48,469 nucleotides of DNA from Lachnospiraceae bacterium (GTDB taxonomy: Bacteria > Bacillota > Clostridia > Lachnospirales > Lachnospiraceae): assembly GCA_022796475.1 (NCBI GenBank), contig JAAWIS010000020.1:1-48469 (forward strand), read 5' to 3'. Numbering within the stretch: position 1 is the stretch's first letter; each line of letters starts with the position of its first letter. A model generated the notes under the pieces. The model worked only from the letters and a program-made list of their open reading frames with translations. It was not told the DNA's origin and did not search any database. A program made the position numbers and the translations under genes. Shown piece after piece: positions 36,764-48,397 of this stretch.

Positions 36764-38062
36764 TCACATCTTTATCCCATAAAACTCCAGATATTCTTTC
36801 AATCTGTCAAGATTTTCCAGATAGGAATCCAGTTTTGCCAACGTTTTAAAGTCCCTGTCATACAGCACAATCCAGCCCATATTTCTGGAAACACAGAACA
36901 CCTCTTTTACGGAAAATTTAGCGGCCCGGCCGAACCTGGAAACTGCATGAATCCTTTCTCCGTCTATTTTTACCTGGCATACCTTTCCGATGCGCAAATA
37001 AATAATCCCCATTCCCATCACGGCAAGTTCAAGGATACTAATCGCCCATCCTTCTGCCATAGTCAAAGTCCTAACGTCGATTAGCAGAAAAAGAGCCAGC
37101 CCAATCAATAAGAAAAACCAGCCAATTCCAATAAATCCTATCCGGGTAGAACGTTTTAGGCGAAGGGTAAACTGCTGCTGAGGAACAGAAACTTTTACTG
37201 ATTCCGGATCTGGGCTGGCTTCATCTGGAGAACGCCATCCAACAGGAGCCTTGTGGATTGGAATATTCCTTTGGATCAGCCAGACAAGCAGCAGATCGGC
37301 ATGTTCCATACTGCCTGCAAATTTAGCCAGCACCTGATAATTCTTGTCATAAATTACATTACACCCTCCGGAAGGACCCAGCACCACACCGGCAATATCA
37401 TGAACAGAACAAATGCGGTCTTTGCGAAACCGGCTTTTCCACTGAAGGCTGCTGCCCTCCACGATGATACGGGTTCCTGGTGCAAAGCGGCTGTGTACAA
37501 CAAAGCACACTGGCGGATTTTTATTAGGAAGTTTCTCCGGAAGCAGGTTGTAGGAAGCGCCGCCGGCATTTGCGTATGCTATATGCCATGGCCCCCTTTT
37601 CCAGTCTGCATAAGTCAGCAAAGTCCTTCTGGTGAAGAAAAAACCAGTAAGCCCTATACCGTCGCATAAAAGCAGCAGCTTAAAGGTCATGCTCCACCGC
37701 CGGTTCCAGTCATCCGCTGTTAATTGCGTTTCGGAAAGGGCAGCAGGCAGCAGGACTGATATTACCACCCAAAGGGAACAAGCTAATAGAGTGCAGATTC
37801 CTACCGTAACATAGGCGGCAGTTTTCGAACGCCGTCCATGGAACAGGCGGTAAAATCCCCCGATTACCAGTCCTGCAAAAAGCTGGAGGGTGATGCTGAA
37901 TCTTTCTATCTGATACAGCCAGCATAACAGCAGCACCAGAATGCAGACAAACATCCCTACAGCACTTCCTAAAATGCCGCCAAGAACACTGCCCTGCAGC
38001 TTGGGACACGCTTCAAAATTGGGGTATTCTTCATGATGCGATGGATTGAAATATTCTGACAT
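36764..38062 (-). CDS. membrane protein of unknown function with a duplicated PH-like module
   Basis: A 432-residue protein not matched to a family I can name. Four or so helices occupy the N-terminal 160 residues, a soluble stretch follows (about 160-300), then two further helices (about 310-360) and a soluble C-terminus. Two segments look like diverged copies: VIYDKNYQVLAKFAGSMEHA near 233-252 and IVLYDRDFKTLAKLDSYLEN near 398-417, each followed by an amphipathic helix. Together they resemble bacterial PH-like domains anchored to the membrane. AAGGAGGT lies before the start. It is convergent with the BceS-like kinase and 64 bp upstream of nothing on its own strand, so it is probably monocistronic. 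Confidence 0.8.
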   Translation of the reverse strand: MSEYFNPSHHEEYPNFEACPKLQGSVLGGILGSAVGMFVCILVLLLCWLYQIERFSITLQLFAGLVIGGFYRLFHGRRSKTAAYVTVGICTLLACSLWVVISVLLPAALSETQLTADDWNRRWSMTFKLLLLCDGIGLTGFFFTRRTLLTYADWKRGPWHIAYANAGGASYNLLPEKLPNKNPPVCFVVHSRFAPGTRIIVEGSSLQWKSRFRKDRICSVHDIAGVVLGPSGGCNVIYDKNYQVLAKFAGSMEHADLLLVWLIQRNIPIHKAPVGWRSPDEASPDPESVKVSVPQQQFTLRLKRSTRIGFIGIGWFFLLIGLALFLLIDVRTLTMAEGWAISILELAVMGMGIIYLRIGKVCQVKIDGERIHAVSRFGRAAKFSVKEVFCVSRNMGWIVLYDRDFKTLAKLDSYLENLDRLKEYLEFYGIKM

Positions 38063-38126
38063 CCAGCAACCTCCTTAATCCCTTAGATTGTTTACTGGAA
38101 AATTTTAGAAGTTTTCTAATATTTTT

Positions 38127-38690
38127 CTAAAAAATCCCATAAATCACCACCCCAAAACAGGCTGACAGCAAAATCAATTGAAGGGGCGGCAACCGTTTTT
38201 GAAACCACTTCTTCCATATTGCCATAGCAGCAATCAACAGCAAAACTATAACCAAATTTCGGATATCCGGCCTTATGCCGGGAAATGAAAGGAAACATAC
38301 GCTGGCTGTCATATAAGCGCCGGTAGCAAGGATAATACCGGCAATGCAGGGTTTTACTCCTCTTAGCACCGCTTGAATATATTTGTTTTTCACTGCTGTT
38401 TTTAAAAGGGCTGTAAGCAGCAGAATAATGAAAAAAGAAGGGAAAACAACTGCCAGGGTAGCCGCTGCTGCTCCCCAAAATCCTGCCTGGCTGCTTCCCA
38501 CATAAGTTGCAAGATTTACCATAATTGGCCCAGGGGTGCTTTCGCTAACCGCAATCAGATAGGTTAGCTCTTCCTCTCCCATCCATCCATAAGACAGCAC
38601 TACATCACGAATCAGAGGAATTGCTCCATAAGCACCGCCAAAAGCAAAGCATCCTACTTTTAAAAATCCTAAAAATAATTCCAGCAGCAT
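38127..38690 (-). CDS. chromate transporter family protein (half-size, second subunit)
   Basis: A 187-residue membrane protein of the CHR family. It shows the amino-terminal pattern FLKVGCFAFGGAYGAIPLI and the loop ESTPGPIMVNLATYVGSSQAG typical of one CHR domain, with about five or six helices. Short CHR proteins work as pairs. The partner gene ends 4 bp upstream, and the binding site GGAGGGG lies inside that gene, so translation is coupled. Substrates of such pairs are chromate or sulfate-like oxyanions in characterised cases; the in vivo substrate here is unknown. Confidence 0.92.
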   Translation of the reverse strand: MLLELFLGFLKVGCFAFGGAYGAIPLIRDVVLSYGWMGEEELTYLIAVSESTPGPIMVNLATYVGSSQAGFWGAAAATLAVVFPSFFIILLLTALLKTAVKNKYIQAVLRGVKPCIAGIILATGAYMTASVCFLSFPGIRPDIRNLVIVLLLIAAMAIWKKWFQKRLPPLQLILLSACFGVVIYGIF

Positions 38691-38694
38691 CCGG

Positions 38695-39279
38695 TTATTT
38701 CCCCTCCTTCCCTCTTATATGCTCCTGCAGAATAAACATAGCCAAACTGACAGCGCCTGCAAGCAGCATCAAACTGACCGTGGAAAAATTCCATGAAAAA
38801 ATATGGATAAAAAACATGACTCCAAAGGATCCGGCCATAATCGCCATCGGCAGGGCTTTCTTCTGCATTTTTTTAATCATAGAAACCGCCCCATTCCAGA
38901 TTAAAATTCCTACTGCTGCCTTTATTCCCTTAAACCCATTGGCAATCAGCCTGATTTCTAAAAAACGGTCAAAAAACAGAGAAATTATAAAAATAATGAG
39001 AAATGAAGGCAGAATCACACCCAAGGTGGCGCTGAGAGCGCCCAAAAGACCTGCCTGTTGGTATCCGACAAAGGTAGCGCAGTTAATGGCAATCGGCCCA
39101 GGAGTTGATTCAGCAATAATGGTTACATTAAACATATCATCATGAGTAATCCACTGCTTCCTGTCCACACAAATATCTTCAATGATGGAAATCATGGCAT
39201 AACCGCCGCCAAAGGTAAAGGCGCCGATTTTCATAAATGTAAAAAATAACTCCTTTTTGATCCCTTTTCCTTTTTCCAT
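38695..39279 (-). CDS. chromate transporter family protein (half-size, first subunit)
   Basis: A 194-residue CHR-domain membrane protein with FMKIGAFTFGGGYAMISII and IAESTPGPIAINCATFVGYQ. It is the first of the two-gene unit. The Met start at 39279 is the only in-frame ATG, but AAGGAGG lies 16 bases upstream, which is far. An in-frame ATT three codons earlier would have better spacing, so the start deserves caution. A promoter 150 bp upstream is plausible. Confidence 0.9.
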   Translation of the reverse strand: MEKGKGIKKELFFTFMKIGAFTFGGGYAMISIIEDICVDRKQWITHDDMFNVTIIAESTPGPIAINCATFVGYQQAGLLGALSATLGVILPSFLIIFIISLFFDRFLEIRLIANGFKGIKAAVGILIWNGAVSMIKKMQKKALPMAIMAGSFGVMFFIHIFSWNFSTVSLMLLAGAVSLAMFILQEHIRGKEGK

Positions 39280-39425
39280 AACGTAAATTCAAATGCCTCC
39301 TTACAGTTGGAACGGATTGGCTATGTTCCTTATCCAGCTTTTTACATGATATCTTGTGTTCTGCACATACTACGCTTTCGGGCTGCACACTCGCTGACGC
39401 TCGGTGCGGTATCATCTCTGTAGGG

Positions 39426-39456
39426 ATTATAGCATAAATTATTAGAATATTATCAA
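39426..39456 (-). promoter_or_regulatory. putative promoter of the chromate transporter pair
   Basis: Minus strand TTGATA (39451-39456), 19-bp spacer, extended -10 TGCTATAAT with TATAAT at 39426-39431. The spacer has no dyad. Confidence 0.5.
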
Positions 39457-39561
39457 GTCTTTTTAATCAAAACGGCTGATTTGAAAAATAACACGATTAT
39501 AAAATTCAGGAATCAAAAATACATTGGCTCCCAACTTGTGTCCTCAGAAAGGTTATGGTAA

Positions 39562-40458
39562 TATGAACGTGTATGCAATCGCAAACAGCAGCGTGTTTTT
39601 TCAGATTATGGAAATTGTATTAGTAAAATTGAAAAAATATTTACATTTGCACAAAGCTACAATGAAAAAGCAAATATAAGTTATAAAAAGGCAGAAATAA
39701 TGCTTTTGGACGCTTTGCACATGTCTAATTTTATGCCTATAGAAAGAAATGTTGCAATCAAAAACTTCTCTGACAGCTTTGGTACAAGCGGCAGATTAGA
39801 TGCGGAATATTATCAAACAAAATATGATACTCTGTTTGCAAAGCTGTCAGCGGTGAGAACGTATCTTTTGGGGGATTTAGTTTGGATAAAAAAATCTGTA
39901 GAACCAGGCAGTGACGAATATCTTTCAGAAGGCATTCCATTTGTTCGTGTATCAAATTTATCTAAATATGGACTTTCTGAACCAGAATTTCATTTGGGTA
40001 GAATACCATTCGCACATATGAATCTGCAACCTAAAAAAGATACTATTTTGCTCTCAAAAGATGGTAGTGTGGGGATTGCATATAAGGCAGAAAAAGATTT
40101 GGATATTGTGACTTCGGGTGCTATTCTGCATTTAGAGCTTAAAACCAATCAATTTTTGCCAGATTATTTGACACTGGTGCTAAATTCACTGATAGTAAAA
40201 ATGCAAGCGGAAAGAGATGCAGGAGGATCAATTATTCTACACTGGAAGCCATCTGAAATTGAAAAGATAGTTATTCCATGGTTGCCAGTTGACAAACAAG
40301 AACAGATTTCTTGTATCATTCAGAAGAGCTTTTCCTTGCGTAGAGAAAGTAAAGAACTTTTGGAAAGAGCAAAACAGGTTGTGGAAATGGCAATAGAGAA
40401 AGATGAACAAACAGCGATGGATTGGCTAAGCAGCCTCAAATCAACACCACCGGCTTAG
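39562..40458 (+). pseudogene. 5'-truncated type I restriction specificity subunit (hsdS remnant)
   Basis: The frame is open from 39562 (after a stop at 39559) but has no credible start until an ATG at 39700. Residues encoded before that ATG (ISKIEKIFTFAQSYNEKANI, then SYKKAEIMLLDAL) are the central conserved helix of HsdS. The second target-recognition domain follows from GRLDAEYYQTKYD through SKDGSVGIAYKAE and IEKIVIPWLPVDKQEQI, with the C-terminal helix KELLERAKQVVEMAIEK. The first TRD is missing, and no hsdM or hsdR lies in the window. The last three sense codons are supplied by the hairpin at 40447-40465. The fragment is AT-rich compared with flanking genes. Confidence 0.8.
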
Positions 40459-40465
40459 CCGGTGG
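40447..40465. mobile_element. IS200/IS605-like end hairpin (scar)
   Basis: A perfect 9-bp stem CCACCGGCT/AGCCGGTGG with a single central base, of the type found at IS200/IS605 ends. It contains the stop codon of the hsdS remnant. No transposase or tnpB remains nearby. Confidence 0.45.
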
Positions 40466-40587
40466 CTTACTGCTGCATCTGAATCCTTTTTTGTCTGGTT
40501 TGACCAAAACATCACTTAATAGAACACATTTCTTAAATCACCTGATACAGCAAATAACTAAAAAGAGTAATTTTTATAATTTATGCA

Positions 40588-40779
40588 ATGCCTGACCTGC
40601 AGTATTTTGATGACTGCTACATTGTTACTGGACACACTCCCACAAAATTTATCAACAAGAATTCTCCCGGAAAAATTTATCAGAAAAGCCATCATATCGC
40701 CATTGACTGCGGGGCAGTATTCAGAAATCCTCTGGGATGCATTTGTTTGGATACATTAGAAGAATTTTATATAGGGTAG
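40588..40779 (+). pseudogene. C-terminal fragment of a calcineurin-like phosphoesterase
   Basis: A 63-residue frame: [20 protein letters not shown], then [20 protein letters not shown] and [10 protein letters not shown]. This is the C-terminal end of PrpA/ApaH-like serine/threonine phosphatases, with the metal-binding GHT and the D-C-G block. The N-terminal catalytic half (GDxHG, GDxxDRG, GNHE) is missing, and stops lie upstream in the frame at 40555. No ribosome binding site is evident. A decayed gene, consistent with deletion next to the IS-like hairpin. Confidence 0.7.
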
Positions 40780-40887
40780 CTGTTTGCAGTTACCTGTCTG
40801 TGGTTTTATCCTTTCCTGCCAACCTTATAGCATAACTTACATTCATAAGTTTTTCGTGTATGTTGTATGCCTGTCTAATACCACCTT

Positions 40888-43005
40888 TTAATCTTTCCAG
40901 CGCATATCCCTATACTTTCGAATCCAATCTGGATCTTGATAGCTGTCTTCTAACATCTGGCAGCCATAGCACAGATCATCTGCCATTTCCAGAATTACAT
41001 CTTCCAGCTCTAAATTATGTTTCCATTTCCTGTCGATTCTGTCATAGCCCAGCAGCGCGCCAAGAATATTTCCAGTGACTGCCCCTGTGGAATCGCTGTC
41101 GCCCTTATGGTTTACGGCTGCAATAATTCCGGCAGAGAAGTCATCCTGATACCGAAGGGAGCAATAAATTCCGATTCCCAGTGTTTCTTCCGCAACCCAG
41201 CCCTCTCCAATCTGGTGTATATTATCCAAATCGCTCTCCCCATTTTCTGATAAACCTACTGCCAGGCTGATTATATCTGTCAATTCTTTCAGATGCTTGT
41301 CGCCAGAAAAAAGTTCAGTTATCGTATCTCTCGCCTCCAGCACAATTTCTTTCAGTGTCTGTTTCTGCTTCGGATAAACAAGACGGCTGATAATATGAAC
41401 CAGGACAGCAGCAGGCATATATCCAAGAGAGTGCCCATGTGTGATTGCAGCAATCTGGGCGCCCTGGCGATCAAGCTCTTTTATAGAAACAAATGGATCT
41501 TGTTGGAATGCAATTGGCGCAACACGCATAATGCCTCCACAGCCTTTACTGGCATTCTGGGGATTATCAATAAAATTTCCATCGCTGTTGCGCCTATTTT
41601 TCTGCTCACAGAGCGCAGACAGGCAGGTATTTCCGGGAGCCCTCAAGCAATACAATTCCGGAACATCTAAAAGCCATGAAATGCATCCCTTTCCATACCC
41701 CCTGGGCCGTTTCCTGCTCTCTTCAAACGTCACCTCCTGTGTCAGCAGCCAATCCTGATAAGACATGGCAACATCGCTGCTGGCAGCGCCTTTGATGCCT
41801 TCCATCACTTGTCTGGTTTTAGCTGCCAAAAGCCCATTTGCTGTAAACAGGGTCATCTGAGTATCATCCGAAATCAACGCCTTTCCGCTTTCAGGGTCAA
41901 GTTCATAATCTTGTATGCCATTTTTTCCAAATTGGGAAAAAATCTGTTTTTCACTGAAAAATTCCACCGGATAGCCAAGAGAATCCCCCGCTGCACCGCC
42001 AAACAGACTTCCTCTGATTCGGTCAAACTGACTATCTGTTTCTCTGATTTTTTCTATTGTCACTTCATGATCTCTTTGATTTTCTTCTCTATAAAAGCTG
42101 CCAGAAGCAAAATTCCGGTAGAATTCGTTTAAGTTATATTGTCCGGCTGTTCGGTCAAGGACGGCGAAATCAATCTGTCGGAAACAATCATTCCCCCTCA
42201 GGCCATAGAAGCTCATTTCTTTAAAAGCTTTGTAAAACAAATCTGAAATCACGCGGGCATCATTTCCAAACGCACCACATCCCCATGCACCAAGAATCAG
42301 GTACTGATAGCCAAAATAAGCGGCGCATTTCAGCATCTTTGTAATTCGTCCAAAGAGCATATCCTGGTATTTTTCTTCGCTCATCCCTTCTTTTCCATAA
42401 GTAACCATAGGTGCCCCACAGGTTAGAACTGCCACAATCACCGTTTCCGAAAGAAGATTGCCCTTCTCATCCTGAAGGATTTCCACCTGGGGAGAAAAAA
42501 TCATTGCATCTGATCCCATATATGTGTTTCGCCCTCTATTGTATCTATAATAGTCTGCGGCGCTCCTGCTCTCTAATGACCGCAAAAGAGAACTTTTTCT
42601 GCACAAATCTTCCTCCTGTGCCCTTGCTCCCCATCGGACACCGCCTCCTGGGTTCACAGGATTGGCAAAGTTCAGAACTAATACCGGCTTTGCATCTTTC
42701 TCAAAAGAAAATCCAAACCTTTCATACTGACGCCTTGCAGCGGTAAATGAATCTATATTTTCACAGCTAAAGCCACATCGCCCTGTCGCACTGGCTTTCT
42801 TAAAATCCCTGGAGCGGGAATGAATGTTCCGGCACGCCCTGAGGCTGCATATATCCTGCACATCTTCCGGAAGCAGGACACAGGCCTTTTCCATCTCTTC
42901 TTTCGACAGCTTCAGCTTAATGGTTGTTCCATTCATCGTGTAGCTGCCCTGTTCTAAAATCTGCAAGGTTTCCTGCAGTATTTCTGTAGCATGATTTTTG
43001 TTCAT
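40888..43005 (-). CDS. fused PARG-signature (TIGR02452/DUF2263) and ADP-ribosylglycohydrolase protein
   Basis: A 705-residue soluble protein joining two unrelated ADP-ribose hydrolase folds. The N-terminal part (about 1-295) is a TIGR02452-type macro-like domain with LNFANPVNPGGGVRWGARAQ. The canonical PARG motif GGG-X7-QEE is at Gly120-Glu132, and GAWGCGAFGND is at 239-249. The C-terminal part (about 327-690) is a DraG/ARH domain: RGSLFGGAAGDSLGYPVEF, metal-binding SDDTQM (379-384), GCGGIMRVAPIA, ITHGHSLGYMPA, and metal-binding GDSDSTGAVTGN (635-646). All expected catalytic residues are present. The likely role is removal of ADP-ribose from proteins or nucleic acids, or free ADP-ribose metabolism. 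The start has AAAGGA upstream. No ADP-ribosyltransferase is adjacent. Confidence 0.9.
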   Translation of the reverse strand: MNKNHATEILQETLQILEQGSYTMNGTTIKLKLSKEEMEKACVLLPEDVQDICSLRACRNIHSRSRDFKKASATGRCGFSCENIDSFTAARRQYERFGFSFEKDAKPVLVLNFANPVNPGGGVRWGARAQEEDLCRKSSLLRSLESRSAADYYRYNRGRNTYMGSDAMIFSPQVEILQDEKGNLLSETVIVAVLTCGAPMVTYGKEGMSEEKYQDMLFGRITKMLKCAAYFGYQYLILGAWGCGAFGNDARVISDLFYKAFKEMSFYGLRGNDCFRQIDFAVLDRTAGQYNLNEFYRNFASGSFYREENQRDHEVTIEKIRETDSQFDRIRGSLFGGAAGDSLGYPVEFFSEKQIFSQFGKNGIQDYELDPESGKALISDDTQMTLFTANGLLAAKTRQVMEGIKGAASSDVAMSYQDWLLTQEVTFEESRKRPRGYGKGCISWLLDVPELYCLRAPGNTCLSALCEQKNRRNSDGNFIDNPQNASKGCGGIMRVAPIAFQQDPFVSIKELDRQGAQIAAITHGHSLGYMPAAVLVHIISRLVYPKQKQTLKEIVLEARDTITELFSGDKHLKELTDIISLAVGLSENGESDLDNIHQIGEGWVAEETLGIGIYCSLRYQDDFSAGIIAAVNHKGDSDSTGAVTGNILGALLGYDRIDRKWKHNLELEDVILEMADDLCYGCQMLEDSYQDPDWIRKYRDMRWKD

Positions 43006-43216
43006 GGGGGATTCCTTTCTTGTTTTTATTATAGCCTCCGCAAATTTCCAAATCAGAATTAACTACTGAAAAATGCTTAAACAGTACCATTGTATCTATA
43101 ATTTACATGATATTTATCTGCATGTCCACACAATATTTCACCCACAAGAACTTTCTTCATCTGGCCTTCTCCCGGAAATCTTTCATTAACAGAAAATCTT
43201 AGCCAAATTTAACATA

Positions 43217-44383
43217 TTACTTATATCCGAATTTAGTCATTTTTCTAACTATACTCATATTTTTTATCCATATCTTTATTTTTCTTTTTTTTGATATAGG
43301 CGTATACTTTTTTTCTAACTTATCAAAGGACATTTTACTCATATCTTTATAGAATTCACTTCTTTTTTGTGGTTGGTAAACCGAACTGTATTCTGCAGGA
43401 TTCTCAGCTACACTCACAGCATAATTGCAAGGTTTGCACAATGCTTCTGCTCTTATTTTATCTACCAGATTTTCTCCTTTTTCTGTTCTGGAGATCACAA
43501 GTGATGTACCTAATCCATCATTCATTTCTGGAACAGCACGTTCAATTCCCCAAAAATCACCTATTGTCAAATCTGATTTTTTACTATTTTTTGCTTTACA
43601 TTTATAGCATGATGGCCTTAAGCTATAATTTTTTAAAAACATTATCATATACGGGTGAAATCCCATTGGAATATAATACCGTCTTCCTTTAAATTGTTCT
43701 TCTACTCCATAATCTTTCCAATCATAAATTTTACTGCGAAAATTTACATTTATAATTTTCTTTCCCATTCTTTTTTGAGTAAAAGCAACATATTTTTTCC
43801 ATAATTTAGGTGATGGTACTCCATGACATATTACATCAACACATATCAAATTATCATAACTCTTATGTAAATATTTTACTAATCCATTAACTTGACAAGC
43901 AGTCCCAGAAAATAAAACAAGTTTTCCTTCTTCCAAATTTTTATAAATTTCCTTATATATTGTATTCATATAGCTTTGTAAGTATTTTGAACCACGCAGT
44001 TTTAGCAGCTCATGCTCACTTGTTGCTTTTCCCACAAATGCCCCTGTACAGTCCTCATTCATTTGTGTCCCATAAACAACCCCATCTCTCCTTAAAACAT
44101 ATTGTGCAAGCAAAGAAAAAACCGCACCAGAAGAACTATTTTTCCTAAGTTGTGTATTTTTAGCTGCACATGCATACGCATTAATAACTTTATTAGTTGT
44201 TTTAATTTCTTTACCAAACGGACATACTTTATCACAAACATTACAATTAATACAGCTATTAGAGTCTACTATAGGGTATAAAAATCCTTCATCATCTTCT
44301 ATCATACTAATGCACTGCTTTGGACATACATTTTGGCAAGCACCGCATCCACAACAATTTACTTTTTCTTTTATTGTTATCAT
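43217..44383 (-). CDS. coenzyme F420 hydrogenase/dehydrogenase beta-subunit family protein
   Basis: A 388-residue iron-sulfur flavoprotein-like enzyme. An N-terminal two-[4Fe-4S] ferredoxin region has Cys10/13/16/20 and Cys44/47/50/54. The FrhB N- and C-terminal domains follow (RKNSSSGAVFSLLAQYVL, then LFSGTACQVNGLVKYL, DVICHGVPSPKLWKKY, and KSDLTIGDFWGIE). Despite the name, homologues beside polysaccharide pyruvyl transferases in Clostridia and Bacteroides are thought to serve polysaccharide modification. Start 44383 has AAGGAA eight bases upstream, whereas eight extra codons upstream lack support. Last gene of the AT-rich surface polysaccharide cluster. Confidence 0.9.
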   Translation of the reverse strand: MITIKEKVNCCGCGACQNVCPKQCISMIEDDEGFLYPIVDSNSCINCNVCDKVCPFGKEIKTTNKVINAYACAAKNTQLRKNSSSGAVFSLLAQYVLRRDGVVYGTQMNEDCTGAFVGKATSEHELLKLRGSKYLQSYMNTIYKEIYKNLEEGKLVLFSGTACQVNGLVKYLHKSYDNLICVDVICHGVPSPKLWKKYVAFTQKRMGKKIINVNFRSKIYDWKDYGVEEQFKGRRYYIPMGFHPYMIMFLKNYSLRPSCYKCKAKNSKKSDLTIGDFWGIERAVPEMNDGLGTSLVISRTEKGENLVDKIRAEALCKPCNYAVSVAENPAEYSSVYQPQKRSEFYKDMSKMSFDKLEKKYTPISKKRKIKIWIKNMSIVRKMTKFGYK

Positions 44384-44442
44384 TCTTACTTTCCTTAAAA
44401 TTTTCACGCCTATAAATTCTGAATTTTGCGTTACTTATTCTT

Positions 44443-45942
44443 CTACTTTTTTAACAAATTTCTGATAATATTTCTTTCATCCTCGTTCATTCCCCAAATC
44501 CATAAAAACGAAACAAACAGAATCACATAAATAACCCCTTGAATAATCCAGAGCCGTAAATTATGAATAGGAAACATATAGCTTAAAACAATTGATATTA
44601 TTATTGGAATCATAAATGATGGAATTATCCTAATTATTTGTTTCCAAAAATAAATAATATCCAAATGAATCTTAGCATCATAATACCAGTTCATAAAAAT
44701 CACATTTCCTATTATCAATGAAATCGAAGTTCCTAATGCCGCTCCCAGTGCCCCTAACTTTAATATGAATGGAATACTCAAAAAAATATTTCCTATTGCT
44801 ATAAAAAAATATACGATCGAACGTGCTTTATGCATATTCTTTGCACGTTGTATTTCTATTCCTATGTTTTGTATCAGCGGAACTGTTACTGGCAGCATCA
44901 GAGCAATTGAAACATAGTATGACTGCTCATATCCCTCTCCTGCCCATAAATGAATAAAAAATTTTCCAAATAATATAAAACCTGATAGAATGAATGAAAG
45001 AATCATAAACTGTATTCTTCCGACTTTCGTAAACAATAACGTTAACTCTCTATCACTATTTGAATTTACTACAATATGGTTAACCCTGGGTATAAATACA
45101 TTCGATACTGATATGGATAATTCTAAATACAATGTATTTATTTGTGCTCCCACTCCATAAACTGCAACAATAGCAGTTCCAGTCAGTCTTCCCAGCAAAA
45201 ATTTATCAACACTCCAATTAATTTGATCAACTATCATATTGATAAAAATTAAGGATGTAAAAAGCCACATTGTTTTTAACAGCCTAAAATCAAAATTTCT
45301 GAAAGCAAATCTCGCATGCAGTTTTTTTACGCAATACCATATGCTAACCATCATTTTTGCAACAGTTAAACCAGTAGTTACCATAACCATTGCTACTGAT
45401 CCATATCCCAAAATAAGAAGCGGTAATGTAATAAATGGATTTAGTAAATTCTGTAACACTACGATTAACTTTTGAAAGAAAAACTGTTCATTAGCAGCCA
45501 TTATCGAATCAAAAACACTACATGGAAAGGTCATAGCCAAATTAATAACCATAAGAAACATAAGGAACTTCGCTGTTTCGTACTCTTGAGATGATAATCC
45601 ATTTCCAAAAATATTTTTAATATTTATTACCATTACATTTCCGCATATTAAGCAAATAATACCTATAACCAAGAAGATCGATAGAAACATACCATTAAAG
45701 GATTCTAATCTCTCTTCATTTTGTTCTTTCTTAATTTGAGCATAAAACTTCATATATGAGCTTGAAAAGCCAAGACTTAATAAACTTAAATATGAAACTA
45801 CAGAATATACAAGCTGGTACAGCCCATATTCATTTTGCCCCAGCAGCCTTAACATAATGGGAGTATAAAGGATTCCGGATATAATATGAACAAATTGCGA
45901 TACATAGGATAAAATGACTCCTATTTTTCTCTGATTTCTCAC
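44443..45942 (-). CDS. polysaccharide flippase (Wzx-like, MATE/MOP superfamily)
   Basis: A 499-residue integral membrane protein with about fourteen hydrophobic segments. It starts RKIGVILSYVSQFVHIISGI, followed by YGLYQLVYSVVSYLSLLSLG, the family's typical N-terminus. It would flip undecaprenyl-linked repeat units across the membrane. The start is GTG (45942) with AGGAGG eight bases upstream; it begins 3 bp after the pyruvyl transferase stop, so the genes are coupled. Its presence implies a Wzx/Wzy-type polymer; no polymerase lies in the visible part of the cluster. Confidence 0.93.
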   Translation of the reverse strand: MRNQRKIGVILSYVSQFVHIISGILYTPIMLRLLGQNEYGLYQLVYSVVSYLSLLSLGFSSSYMKFYAQIKKEQNEERLESFNGMFLSIFLVIGIICLICGNVMVINIKNIFGNGLSSQEYETAKFLMFLMVINLAMTFPCSVFDSIMAANEQFFFQKLIVVLQNLLNPFITLPLLILGYGSVAMVMVTTGLTVAKMMVSIWYCVKKLHARFAFRNFDFRLLKTMWLFTSLIFINMIVDQINWSVDKFLLGRLTGTAIVAVYGVGAQINTLYLELSISVSNVFIPRVNHIVVNSNSDRELTLLFTKVGRIQFMILSFILSGFILFGKFFIHLWAGEGYEQSYYVSIALMLPVTVPLIQNIGIEIQRAKNMHKARSIVYFFIAIGNIFLSIPFILKLGALGAALGTSISLIIGNVIFMNWYYDAKIHLDIIYFWKQIIRIIPSFMIPIIISIVLSYMFPIHNLRLWIIQGVIYVILFVSFLWIWGMNEDERNIIRNLLKK

Positions 45943-45945
45943 ACT

Positions 45946-47058
45946 CTATTCCTCCTGTACCGCCTGCTTAACATATGCATATAGTTTATTTCTCTCCACT
46001 TCTAAAATACGATTGGCTTCTCTAAAATCGGTTAAAAAAATATTACTATCTTCAATTGTTGAAGAAAATCTATTATTCAAATGAAACTTATTTAATAATG
46101 TAACAACTCTGTCTGTCATATTCGCCCGGTAATCTTGACGTTCATAGCAAATAAAGTTAATGTTAAATAAAATAGAAAAGACACAGCCATGAAAAGAATT
46201 CGTGCAAATTAATCTTGCCCGCTTTACTAAATATATAAATTCACATGGTCCCACTGCATAATACTGTGGATAATTATCTTTATCATAAATATTAATGATT
46301 GGAAGTCCTGTTTCTCTGCTAATCTTACTAATTTCTCTAATTATGTTCATATTTTCGTTGCCTAATAAATAAACCATAATAAACTTATCTGGCAATTCAA
46401 AATCTGGTTTTACTGAAATATCCAGCCATTCCTTTTGCATCAGCGCCATTGTCGGATCAGACAAAGTTACCACCTGTCTGCCTGTTAATTCTTGAATCAA
46501 TTTTGAACCACTATCTTCTCTACATGATAACAGTGAAAACTGTTTAAGTTCACTTTTAAATAAATTTTCATATTTACCGGGTATTTCTATTCTCCCAATA
46601 CTTGGCGCGATACAAATCCTTTGTTCGGGATCCGAAAATGAAAGTAAAAAATATCTCATTTCATCTACAGTATCCGTCCAATTTCTCCATACTTGATCAC
46701 TTCCAACAGAAAAAAAATGATATTGTTTTTTTAGATCAATTGGTATTTTATTAAAACTAATTTGTTCTGCTAAATTCAAAAATCTATTTGAAAATTCTGC
46801 AATTTTTTCGATTCTTTTTTTATCAAGAATATACTTGTCGATTCTTTTATTTCTTATTCCTAATTTAACCATAATTTCCTTAAGGAATATTTTTAGCTGC
46901 TGCTTAGAGGCACCTGTAGCTTCCAATTCATTAAGCGCATAATAAATCGTATATGACTCTAAATTTAAATTTCTATAAATTCGCTCAACTGCATAATTCT
47001 GAAGCTTATTTCCGATATTATAATTACCATATAAGGTTACAATACCTATCTTTTTCAT
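45946..47058 (-). CDS. polysaccharide pyruvyl transferase family protein
   Basis: A 370-residue protein of the PF04230 family, which transfers pyruvate from PEP to form a ketal on sugars. The opening KKIGIVTLYGNYNIGNKLQN, the central FFSVGSDQVWRNW (family SD.VW motif), CREDSGSKLIQELTGR, VVTLSDPTMAL and late CTNSFHGCVFSILFN with the conserved Ser-Phe-His-Gly are all visible. GAGG lies 11 bases before the ATG. With the flippase and FrhB-like protein it forms a common surface-polysaccharide decoration unit. Some members lack proven pyruvyl transfer, so the exact reaction is inferred. Confidence 0.92.
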   Translation of the reverse strand: MKKIGIVTLYGNYNIGNKLQNYAVERIYRNLNLESYTIYYALNELEATGASKQQLKIFLKEIMVKLGIRNKRIDKYILDKKRIEKIAEFSNRFLNLAEQISFNKIPIDLKKQYHFFSVGSDQVWRNWTDTVDEMRYFLLSFSDPEQRICIAPSIGRIEIPGKYENLFKSELKQFSLLSCREDSGSKLIQELTGRQVVTLSDPTMALMQKEWLDISVKPDFELPDKFIMVYLLGNENMNIIREISKISRETGLPIINIYDKDNYPQYYAVGPCEFIYLVKRARLICTNSFHGCVFSILFNINFICYERQDYRANMTDRVVTLLNKFHLNNRFSSTIEDSNIFLTDFREANRILEVERNKLYAYVKQAVQEE

Positions 47059-47164
47059 TCTTGTTTAACCTCATTTTTTAAATTTTACTCATATTCTGCA
47101 TTTGTTACATTGGAATATTTTCTTGTAATAAATAATGGCTGTAAATATTTCAAACATAATATTA

Positions 47165-48397
47165 CTAATACAGTGCCACATCACTGAAAACAAATTTTGA
47201 CTCAGGGCTTCCTGTATTATCAAAATAACCGCCATTAAAAATCATTGTTGCTTTTCCATTAACCTTGGATATATCAATCAAGTATTGGTGCCATTCCTCA
47301 TCCAAGTCGTGATAACTTGTTCTACATTCTCCAACAACACATCCTTCTTCGTCATAAACATATACGCTTAATTGGCCATGATCCATAATCTTTTTCCCGT
47401 AAAACACAAGATATTTGTACGGAGATGCATCCTCTATATCACATTTAAAGCCAATATATTCCTTATCCTTCAAATACTGGCTTACTAAAATATCGCTTTC
47501 ACAGGGCCTTTTTAAACTGCCCTGGCACACAATTCCAATATTACCGTTATGCTGTTCTGTCCTTATCTCTGCTTTAGACATTTCGATTAAATTTTGATCG
47601 CTCAGATCCAAATGTAGCGGCATAACCCCTCCATTCAATTCTTTGTTAAGCAGAGCAGCCGCATAGTAATCATTTTCATAATCTTCCTGAGTATTTAATA
47701 CAGTATAGTCGTATGTTGAATAAAATCTTAACTCATCATCAAGATATTGTTGATAATTCTCTGAAGTAAGTAATCCTTTTCCTTCTCGCATATAATTAAG
47801 TAGTAAACTATTGATCCATTCTCCATAATGTATAAAATCTTTATAATTATTCAGATTTGTTGTGATGTCTGTAAGGCAATTAAATGAATAAAGTTTTATA
47901 TTGTTATACTTTAATAACTCTTCAATAATGATCCTTTCTGCTTCTATCTGTTTGTTTAGCGTTCCATCAATTAATAATGATTGCCACCATGCAGCACTAT
48001 ACGGAGTAAAAAAATAATAAAAATCCACATCCGGATATTTGTCTGCCAGAAATGTAACATTTTGTCCAATATTTTCTAATATCGTATTGATCTCTTTTTG
48101 TGTCAACTCAATTGGTAAAGCTGGTTTTCGTGCCGTTATTCCCTCCGGAAATAAAGTATTTTTTCCAAAAGTATAGTCATCCATCCAATTTGAATAATCA
48201 TCAAACGATAAGATTCCACCTTGAAAAGCGGGATTATCATTTTCTTTTTCCATTGGATACACTCTTGAAAATATAACATCCCGGTTAAATACATATTGGA
48301 CATCATTAAAAATATTGTTGTCATACAGATATGTTGGATAAGTTCCCAAATCTTCTCTCATTTGATCTTTATCGGCATAAAACTTATTCATGTCCAA
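47165..48397 (-). CDS. 5'-truncated SGNH/DltD-like protein with a C-terminal beta domain
   Basis: About 410 residues remain. The apparent TTG start at 48397 lies inside the terminal inverted repeat, so the true N-terminus, probably a membrane anchor, is missing. The central region VDFYYFFTPYSAAWWQSLL, then IKLYSFNCLTDITTNLNNYK and DFIHYGEWIN, resembles an SGNH-type hydrolase core whose Asp-x-x-His pair would be in KDFIHYG. Residues from about 295 form a beta-sandwich-like domain ending SKFVFSDVALY. Such proteins occur in polysaccharide clusters as O-acyl-transfer or esterase partners. The assignment is by general resemblance only. Confidence 0.6.
   Translation of the reverse strand: MDMNKFYADKDQMREDLGTYPTYLYDNNIFNDVQYVFNRDVIFSRVYPMEKENDNPAFQGGILSFDDYSNWMDDYTFGKNTLFPEGITARKPALPIELTQKEINTILENIGQNVTFLADKYPDVDFYYFFTPYSAAWWQSLLIDGTLNKQIEAERIIIEELLKYNNIKLYSFNCLTDITTNLNNYKDFIHYGEWINSLLLNYMREGKGLLTSENYQQYLDDELRFYSTYDYTVLNTQEDYENDYYAAALLNKELNGGVMPLHLDLSDQNLIEMSKAEIRTEQHNGNIGIVCQGSLKRPCESDILVSQYLKDKEYIGFKCDIEDASPYKYLVFYGKKIMDHGQLSVYVYDEEGCVVGECRTSYHDLDEEWHQYLIDISKVNGKATMIFNGGYFDNTGSPESKFVFSDVALY

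Follow-up and report, generated by a model that had tools for sequence, protein, structure and literature searches.

The window analysed here (48,469 nucleotides of contig JAAWIS010000020.1, from a Lachnospiraceae bacterium) carries on its reverse strand a gene encoding a microbial PARG macrodomain joined to an ARH/DraG domain. The gene and its parts are as follows:

40888..43005, reverse strand: complete PARG-ARH fusion gene, 705 aa, an uninterrupted ORF with ATG start, stop included; both Pfam domains present
43012..43018, reverse strand: putative Shine-Dalgarno-like AAAGGAA ahead of the ATG, read from the sequence
42106..43005, reverse strand: PARG macrodomain, residues 1-300
42610..42648, reverse strand: PARG signature GGG-x7-QEE, residues 120-132 (GGG 120-122, QEE 130-132; motif pattern search)
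42031..42105, reverse strand: linker, residues 301-325, entering a predicted long helix (residues 307-347 of the model; low pLDDT at 303-310)
40888..42030, reverse strand: ARH/DraG domain, residues 326-705, and stop
41959..41976, reverse strand: ARH Glu-flap-like GYPVEF, residues 344-349 (pattern; Glu invariant in 12 aligned ARH rows)
41854..41871, reverse strand: ARH metal motif SDDTQM, residues 379-384 (pattern; invariant in 12 aligned ARH rows)
41083..41103, reverse strand: ARH metal motif GDSDSTG, residues 635-641 (pattern; invariant in 12 aligned ARH rows)

The two-domain composition is confirmed. PARG_cat_microb (PF10021) matches residues 11-178 with 109.9 bits against a cut-off of 23.5, ADP_ribosyl_GH (PF03747) matches residues 332-658 with 192.9 bits against a cut-off of 26.2, and the microbial PARG model TIGR02452 is passed as well (170.7 versus 50). 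The spacing range of the PARG catalytic signature is GGG-x6-8-QEE; this signature and the macrodomain fold accompany the profile match of the first half, as the dinuclear-metal motifs (DD-T and D-x-D), the Glu flap and an all-helical fold accompany that of the second. The protein scores below the cut-offs of the DraG (TIGR02662, 63.9 versus 337.05 bits) and Tri1 (NF041672, 53.7 versus 490 bits) equivalogs. QEE and the first two glycines of GGG are invariant among 33 aligned PARGs, the third being kept in at least 90%, and a pattern search located THGH at residues 522-525. In phmmer searches against PDB, the PARG half matched the Deinococcus radiodurans and Thermomonospora curvata PARGs (E 9e-32 to 3e-27), and the second half matched MJ1187, DraG, ARH3 and ARH1. 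The gene is the sole match of its kind in its own genome (E 0.001; 100% identity to itself). A preliminary description of this DNA had read it as a single polypeptide combining two different ADP-ribose hydrolases, and is borne out, both Pfam models being over cut-off and both motif sets intact. The position it gave for GGG-X7-QEE (residues 120-132) is exact, and the complete ARH motifs SDDTQM and GDSDSTG are present where it placed them, the distance being 247 residues instead of the 250 it named.

AlphaFold models had a mean pLDDT of 85.7 and pTM of 0.63 for the full-length protein, and of 89.4 and 0.90 for the PARG part alone; the folding alignments used 30-31 of the 80 viral PARG rows kept, and the structure alignment left out L219, which has two stops. 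Domain search and structure prediction, proposed earlier as a check, agree: both domains are over cut-off and both modelled halves align well on solved ADP-ribose hydrolases. Structural kin of the PARG half are the T. curvata (3sig) and D. radiodurans (5zdb) enzymes, whose chains are PARG alone, in contrast to the fusion with ARH found here. The second half resembles ARH3/DraG/Tri1-type chains (2qty, 1t5j, 6dre, 8za7, 2woc), which were solved without a PARG; identity in the structural alignments is 19-25%, too low for the linkage preference (Ser, Arg or other) to be read from them. By their titles, two of these structures, 6dre and 8za7, belong to pairs of an ART toxin and its immunity protein. 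Both DraG and Tri1 are partnered by a transferase.

A polysaccharide/pyruvyl-transferase cluster adjoins the fusion gene on the same strand (43217-48397), and chromate-transporter genes lie nearby. The G+C content is approximately 0.30-0.32 at 43000-47999, across this cluster, versus 0.44-0.47 in the fusion gene. On the other strand there is an orphan type I specificity-like ORF of half the usual size (252 aa; 39700-40458, forward strand; Methylase_S), for which the best NCBIfam match is MAD5 with 71.2 bits against a cut-off of 400, and a scrap resembling by eye the end of a calcineurin-like phosphatase (GHTPT ... IDCGA; 40558-40779, forward strand). The decayed defence-like neighbours mentioned in the preliminary description come down to this ORF and this scrap. 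PADLOC gave no hit for either the window protein or the three-domain protein described below.

Recurrence and surroundings of the fusion

Full-length matches in one uninterrupted frame were found in five other places: G003 (62% identity) and G017 (57%) among 299 sampled genomes of the family, G626 (61%) among 392 genomes of the order, G1090 (68%) among 138 genomes of one genus, and contig L034 of a Eubacterium MAG (63%). The gene of G563 is split over two contigs, C53 ending and C22 starting within it, with 76 of 77 bases matching between the contig ends, and G574 holds a broken remnant (two matches, 110-369 and 570-663). Linkers of related text occur in five of the seven fused proteins, the window's included, the pattern being blank for G017 and G626. 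Because the junction recurs in five ORFs, a split gene and a remnant, the fusion is not a sequencing error; an artefact of assembly or sequencing joining two genes, raised earlier as the finding that would undo the reading (an error around residues 295-325), is practically excluded by the uninterrupted ORFs at 57-68% identity and the related linker.

With the window's own genome counted, the fusion occurs in 3 of 299 genomes of the family sample, 3 of 392 of the order sample (the window's own, G017 and G626), 1 of 398 of the phylum sample (the window's own only) and 1 of 11 of the window's genus; the gene is therefore rare and patchy. Among 50,697 records of phages and 72,556 of plasmids, tblastn found no site covering 80% of the protein, the matches listed being single-domain. 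A scan of viral contigs with the window protein alone gave no match, and profile scans gave 25 ARH and 126 PARG relatives (80 PARGs were kept). One such PARG, at 57% identity on contig L224, the sole viral locus checked for a fusion, is cut by the locus end.

The fusion genes have no neighbour in common in the neighbourhoods seen (those of G017, G563 and L034 are cut by contig ends), and no recognised defence island was found around any of them. Neighbours are flavodoxin and DUF2935 genes in G003, a BspA-type LRR gene in G017, an IMP cyclohydrolase-like gene on L034, superoxide dismutase and QueH genes in G563 (with a weak TIR-like ORF approximately 7 kb from the fusion), and, in G1090, two ORFs without a Pfam match followed by ORFs that look by eye like kinase/PP2C/FHA. 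In G626 the neighbour is the following gene:

L152:3015-6332, forward strand: protein with TIR and RNase H1 N-terminal domains, 87 bases upstream of the fusion on the same strand

Architectures and descent

In G1090 the fused protein has a third domain:

L186:2024-4690, reverse strand: PARG-ARH-Macro gene, 888 aa, one frame (Pfam: PARG 13-171, ARH 321-640, Macro 715-827)

The Macro domain is of the MacroD type, since it is over the cut-off of the O-acetyl-ADP-ribose deacetylase model, its best match (208.5 versus 200). The G563 reading frame on contig C22 also extends into a C-terminal Macro domain. G173, G1124 and G1138 encode two-domain ARH-Macro proteins, as does G184 in truncated form; G126 has a separate Macro gene overlapping the end of its ARH gene, and G1158 has a 297-aa PARG only. 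Recent decay of a Macro domain from the window gene was considered and rejected, tblastn with one Macro seed having revealed no remnant in the window. The fusion is a new architecture built from known enzymes, conserved and more elaborate than first described; no PARG-ARH or PARG-ARH-Macro polypeptide was recognised in our literature search, in which subscription papers were thinly covered.

Trees were built from 75 ARH rows (match >300 residues; quick search, SH-aLRT support only) and 30 PARG rows (match >190 residues), with identical or contained copies taken once; G184, G574, other fragments and the second PARG of G432 were left out. In the ARH tree, the five PARG-ARH, three ARH-Macro and two three-domain rows and the single adjacent-Macro row share one 28-row set (SH-aLRT 94), in which the architectures are intermixed: three-domain G1090 is sister to ARH-Macro G1124 (support 99), and G003 to G626, both PARG-ARH (support 99). 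Multi-domain versus plain ARH requires 5 changes on this tree, the mean for shuffled labels being 10.5 and none of 500 shuffles being as low; five architecture labels require 10 changes, the shuffled mean being 10.9 and 15 of 200 shuffles as low. By these counts the multi-domain rows cluster, yet repeated loss from a larger ancestor is indistinguishable from repeated gain.

As far as can be judged with dS saturated, purifying selection acts strongly on both domains. For the window protein versus that of G1090, dN is 0.24 (PARG) and 0.19 (ARH), the corresponding dS of 1.9 and 2.9 being near saturation; the closer pair G1090/G1124 gave dN 0.108 and dS 1.0 for ARH, and dN 0.064 and dS 0.68 for Macro. 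Several relatives depart from the motifs: the G1090 protein reads GGA instead of GGG in PARG and THRH instead of THGH, the TH pattern gave no match in G003, and neither ARH metal motif was matched by its pattern in G173. Some macrodomains are binders only, and the altered third glycine of G1090 and the unmatched ARH of G173 would suit a protein in which catalysis is left to one domain, tethered to modified targets by the other, which would do no more than bind ADP-ribose. Such a division of labour is very improbable for the window protein, which retains QEE and the ARH metal motifs unaltered and whose two domains are constrained to a similar degree.

Candidate writers of ADP-ribosylation

No transferase is adjacent to the fusion, as had been stated from the sequence: the ART, sirtuin and KptA families are absent from the Pfam scan of 29 window ORFs, the fusion included (smaller and some other ORFs lay outside the scan), and these 29 proteins contain no SirTM-type operon, i.e., no Gln-for-His sirtuin beside an eraser. 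The survey of homologues' neighbours for transferases, also suggested earlier, gave no writer beside the fusions: sirtuin and KptA seeds found none there, nor did Pfam in ten nearby ORFs of relatives, two of them from viral contig L224. Searches for writers in whole genomes covered DarT, KptA and SIR2. A search of 12 genomes for DarT, the window's (95.6% complete) among them, found none, and a DarTG-type toxin-antitoxin pair is not supported.

SIR2-family matches number one each in the window genome, G003, G017, G563 and G1158, two each in G626 and G574, and none in G1090. That of the window genome lies on another contig and has the catalytic His of deacylases; His was found wherever the motif was read in the fusion-related genomes (6 of 9 loci). 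KptA is encoded in 8 of 24 genomes examined, including three of the six fusion or remnant genomes among these (the window's, on another contig, G626 and G563; not G003, G017 or G574). Given the lack of a common neighbour, of a sirtuin or KptA beside relatives' fusions and of DarT in all 12 genomes, and the His of the window genome's sirtuin, the earlier suggestion that the fusion is the surviving part of a larger ADP-ribosylation system is unsupported.

Sirtuin-like genes do adjoin close relatives of the PARG half. In the PARG tree, a clade with 100/99 support unites the seven fused PARGs, that of G1158 and eleven stand-alone ones; the fused PARGs and that of G1158 make no single clade on the best tree, although a tree with one was not rejected (p-AU 0.067). 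The eleven stand-alone PARGs, the sister clade of the fused ones, each lie beside sirtuin-like genes (11 loci in 10 genomes, L182 and L194 being the same locus and counted once):

L063, L065, L073, L075, L076, L078, L079, L081 and L194, with L050 and L052 partial: operon-like sirtuin/PARG loci

The gaps between sirtuin and PARG genes are -59 to 54 bases, with one exception of 258. Eight of the 11 loci have both SIRa and SIRb, each >200 aa; L073 has two SIRb-like genes, L050 has SIRb and a short SIRa piece, and L052 a SIRa piece alone. The motif could be read in 20 distinct sirtuins (not in one short piece), and each of them has Gln instead of the catalytic His, an exchange that marks the ADP-ribosylating SirTM class (PMC4518038, PMC11490716; both available in part). 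The best sequence matches of the G1076 sirtuins are archaeal and Thermotoga Sir2 deacylase entries, and no SirTM-named entry is among the best 60 of 92 and the best 60 of 86 matches. The two-sirtuin/PARG set is a candidate writer-eraser system, and PARGs of this type keep company with a likely writer that is not seen with the fused form. As far as the accessible text of PMC4518038 and PMC11490716 goes, the set resembles the SirTM/Zn-Macro pair in that an eraser adjoins Gln-for-His sirtuin-fold genes, and differs from it in that the eraser is a PARG, not a Zn-Macro, and in that most loci contain two sirtuins; no sirtuin adjoins the fusion itself. A two-sirtuin PARG operon was not recognised in the literature search, with the same thin coverage of subscription papers.

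Since this sister clade adjoins candidate writers, endogenous cycling is an alternative: the PARG half may have come from PARGs reversing SirTM-like sirtuins, the fusion serving a similar writer elsewhere in the genome. The common clade of fused, G1158 and sirtuin-neighboured PARGs and the Gln-for-His exchange are consistent with such a cycle. It is nevertheless decidedly improbable, because the SIR2-family matches of the fusion genomes include no close relative of SIRa or SIRb and carry His where read, because G1090 has none at all, and because the sirtuin-neighboured PARGs read carry PGGQ (G1076, G196, G198) or PGGR (G130), not PGGG.

Proposed function

On balance, the sequence evidence makes the fusion probably a self-contained, bifunctional multi-linkage eraser without a dedicated writer of its own, protective against foreign ADP-ribosylation. 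We infer its catalysis, exact linkages and protective role as follows. First, two independent active sites would be joined by the helical linker. Second, the N-terminal PARG domain would cut ether O-glycosidic bonds of the ribose-ribose type (2'-OH ADP-ribose, as in PAR chains and modified RNA) and may also remove ADP-ribose from phosphate ends. Third, the C-terminal dinuclear-metal ARH domain would release single ADP-ribose from side chains (Ser- or Arg-type), and in relatives a MacroD-type third domain would add ester-bond cleavage. Finally, such a portable, broad eraser could repair the cell's own molecules modified by antibacterial ART toxins or phage ARTs; leaky enzymes such as KptA may be another source of the ADP-ribosylation repaired. 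ADP-ribose tagging is a device that toxins and viruses frequently employ.

According to the available part of PMC7050489, PARG cuts ribose-ribose ether bonds and not the protein-proximal bond, MacroD-type enzymes cut ester and phosphate-ester bonds, and ARH1 and ARH3 cut Arg- and Ser-linked ADP-ribose. The preliminary description had credited PARG with terminal bonds as well; by this source it is right for ribose-ribose and wrong for the terminal protein-ribose bond, and because PARG spares the latter, its pairing with ARH makes more sense. With PARG, ARH and MacroD activities joined, several linkages could be cleared by one protein, and the same ARH set is repeatedly paired with hydrolases for other linkages. 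Stripping of chains together with removal of the linkage residue, or a role against toxins or phages, would fit the published specificities. Bacterial PARGs take ADP-ribose off the 2'-OH of RNA, thereby shielding E. coli from an ART toxin, and off phosphate ends, their role in ordinary bacteria being largely unknown (PMC11833690, available in part); according to the same text, the gene of the D. radiodurans PARG (DRB0099) forms a putative operon with that of an RNA/DNA ligase, which sets it apart from ours.

In the accessible part of PMC9503650, ARG-centred systems without a transferase are proposed to counter incoming ADP-ribosylation. As there, the ARH here has no coupled transferase or sirtuin (Pfam families scanned), and Macro occurs occasionally in the same neighbourhood. 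The fusion differs from them in having no Nudix/WYL regulator, phosphatase or chaperone family alongside (Pfam of eight other ORFs scanned, 36764 to 48397) and in carrying its extra hydrolases in the same polypeptide. With no writer nearby, this proposal that orphan ARH systems reverse intruders' ADP-ribosylation fits best, and the two-enzyme chain may extend it. The differing neighbours of the fusion genes and its presence in 1 of 11 genomes of the genus are as expected for a mobile protective gene.

Clearing of small molecules (free O-acetyl-ADP-ribose, Appr>p from KptA, ADPR products made by TIR, Arg-ADPr), with proteins and RNA not the main target, is an unlikely alternative in spite of several suggestive contexts. 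Roles of this kind have been proposed for phage Macro domains (PMC9503650, partial text), the C-terminal domain of the G1090 protein best matches a deacetylase of such a compound, KptA is present in the window genome, and TIR or TIR-like genes occur near the fusion in G626 and G563. In G081, a KptA-like gene and a second ARH are found <4 kb from a close ARH relative of the fusion:

L039:618-5511, forward strand: ARH, KptA-like gene and second ARH of G081, on one strand within 5 kb

Against this, KptA is limited to 8 of 24 genomes and to half of the fusion or remnant genomes among them, a TIR gene is directly adjacent in one of seven fusion neighbourhoods, and nothing in the literature consulted, part of it in incomplete text, indicated that PARG prefers soluble derivatives.

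Returning to the protective eraser, each of its domains alone is a known eraser of narrow chemistry, and two linkage specificities in one chain, or three in its kin, suggest that a single cell has to face several forms of ADP-ribosylation at one time. A wider scenario is possible, though rather doubtful: a Lachnospiraceae ARH lineage may have built a one-protein eraser from PARG (ether, 2'-OH), ARH (Ser/Arg) and MacroD (ester, phosphate), perhaps with a three-domain origin and scattered losses, as portable immunity against many-linkage toxins and phage enzymes without a partner toxin, its PARG being borrowed from or shared with the separate two-sirtuin and PARG operon. With one protein, the purpose of bacterial PARGs and ARHs becomes directly testable, and the fusion could serve as a reagent for stripping ADP-ribose irrespective of linkage.

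Other relatives of the two domains were also observed. G095 encodes an FHA-ARH fusion of 760 aa (L056:17240-19522, forward strand), long-branched in the ARH tree. Two ARH proteins have extensions without a Pfam match at E 0.01, one of approximately 245 C-terminal residues (L018:1498-3243, forward strand) and one of 157 N-terminal residues (L024:1453-3123, reverse strand). The window genome contains a second macrodomain-like gene (305 aa; L161:187-1104, reverse strand), located near a contig end.
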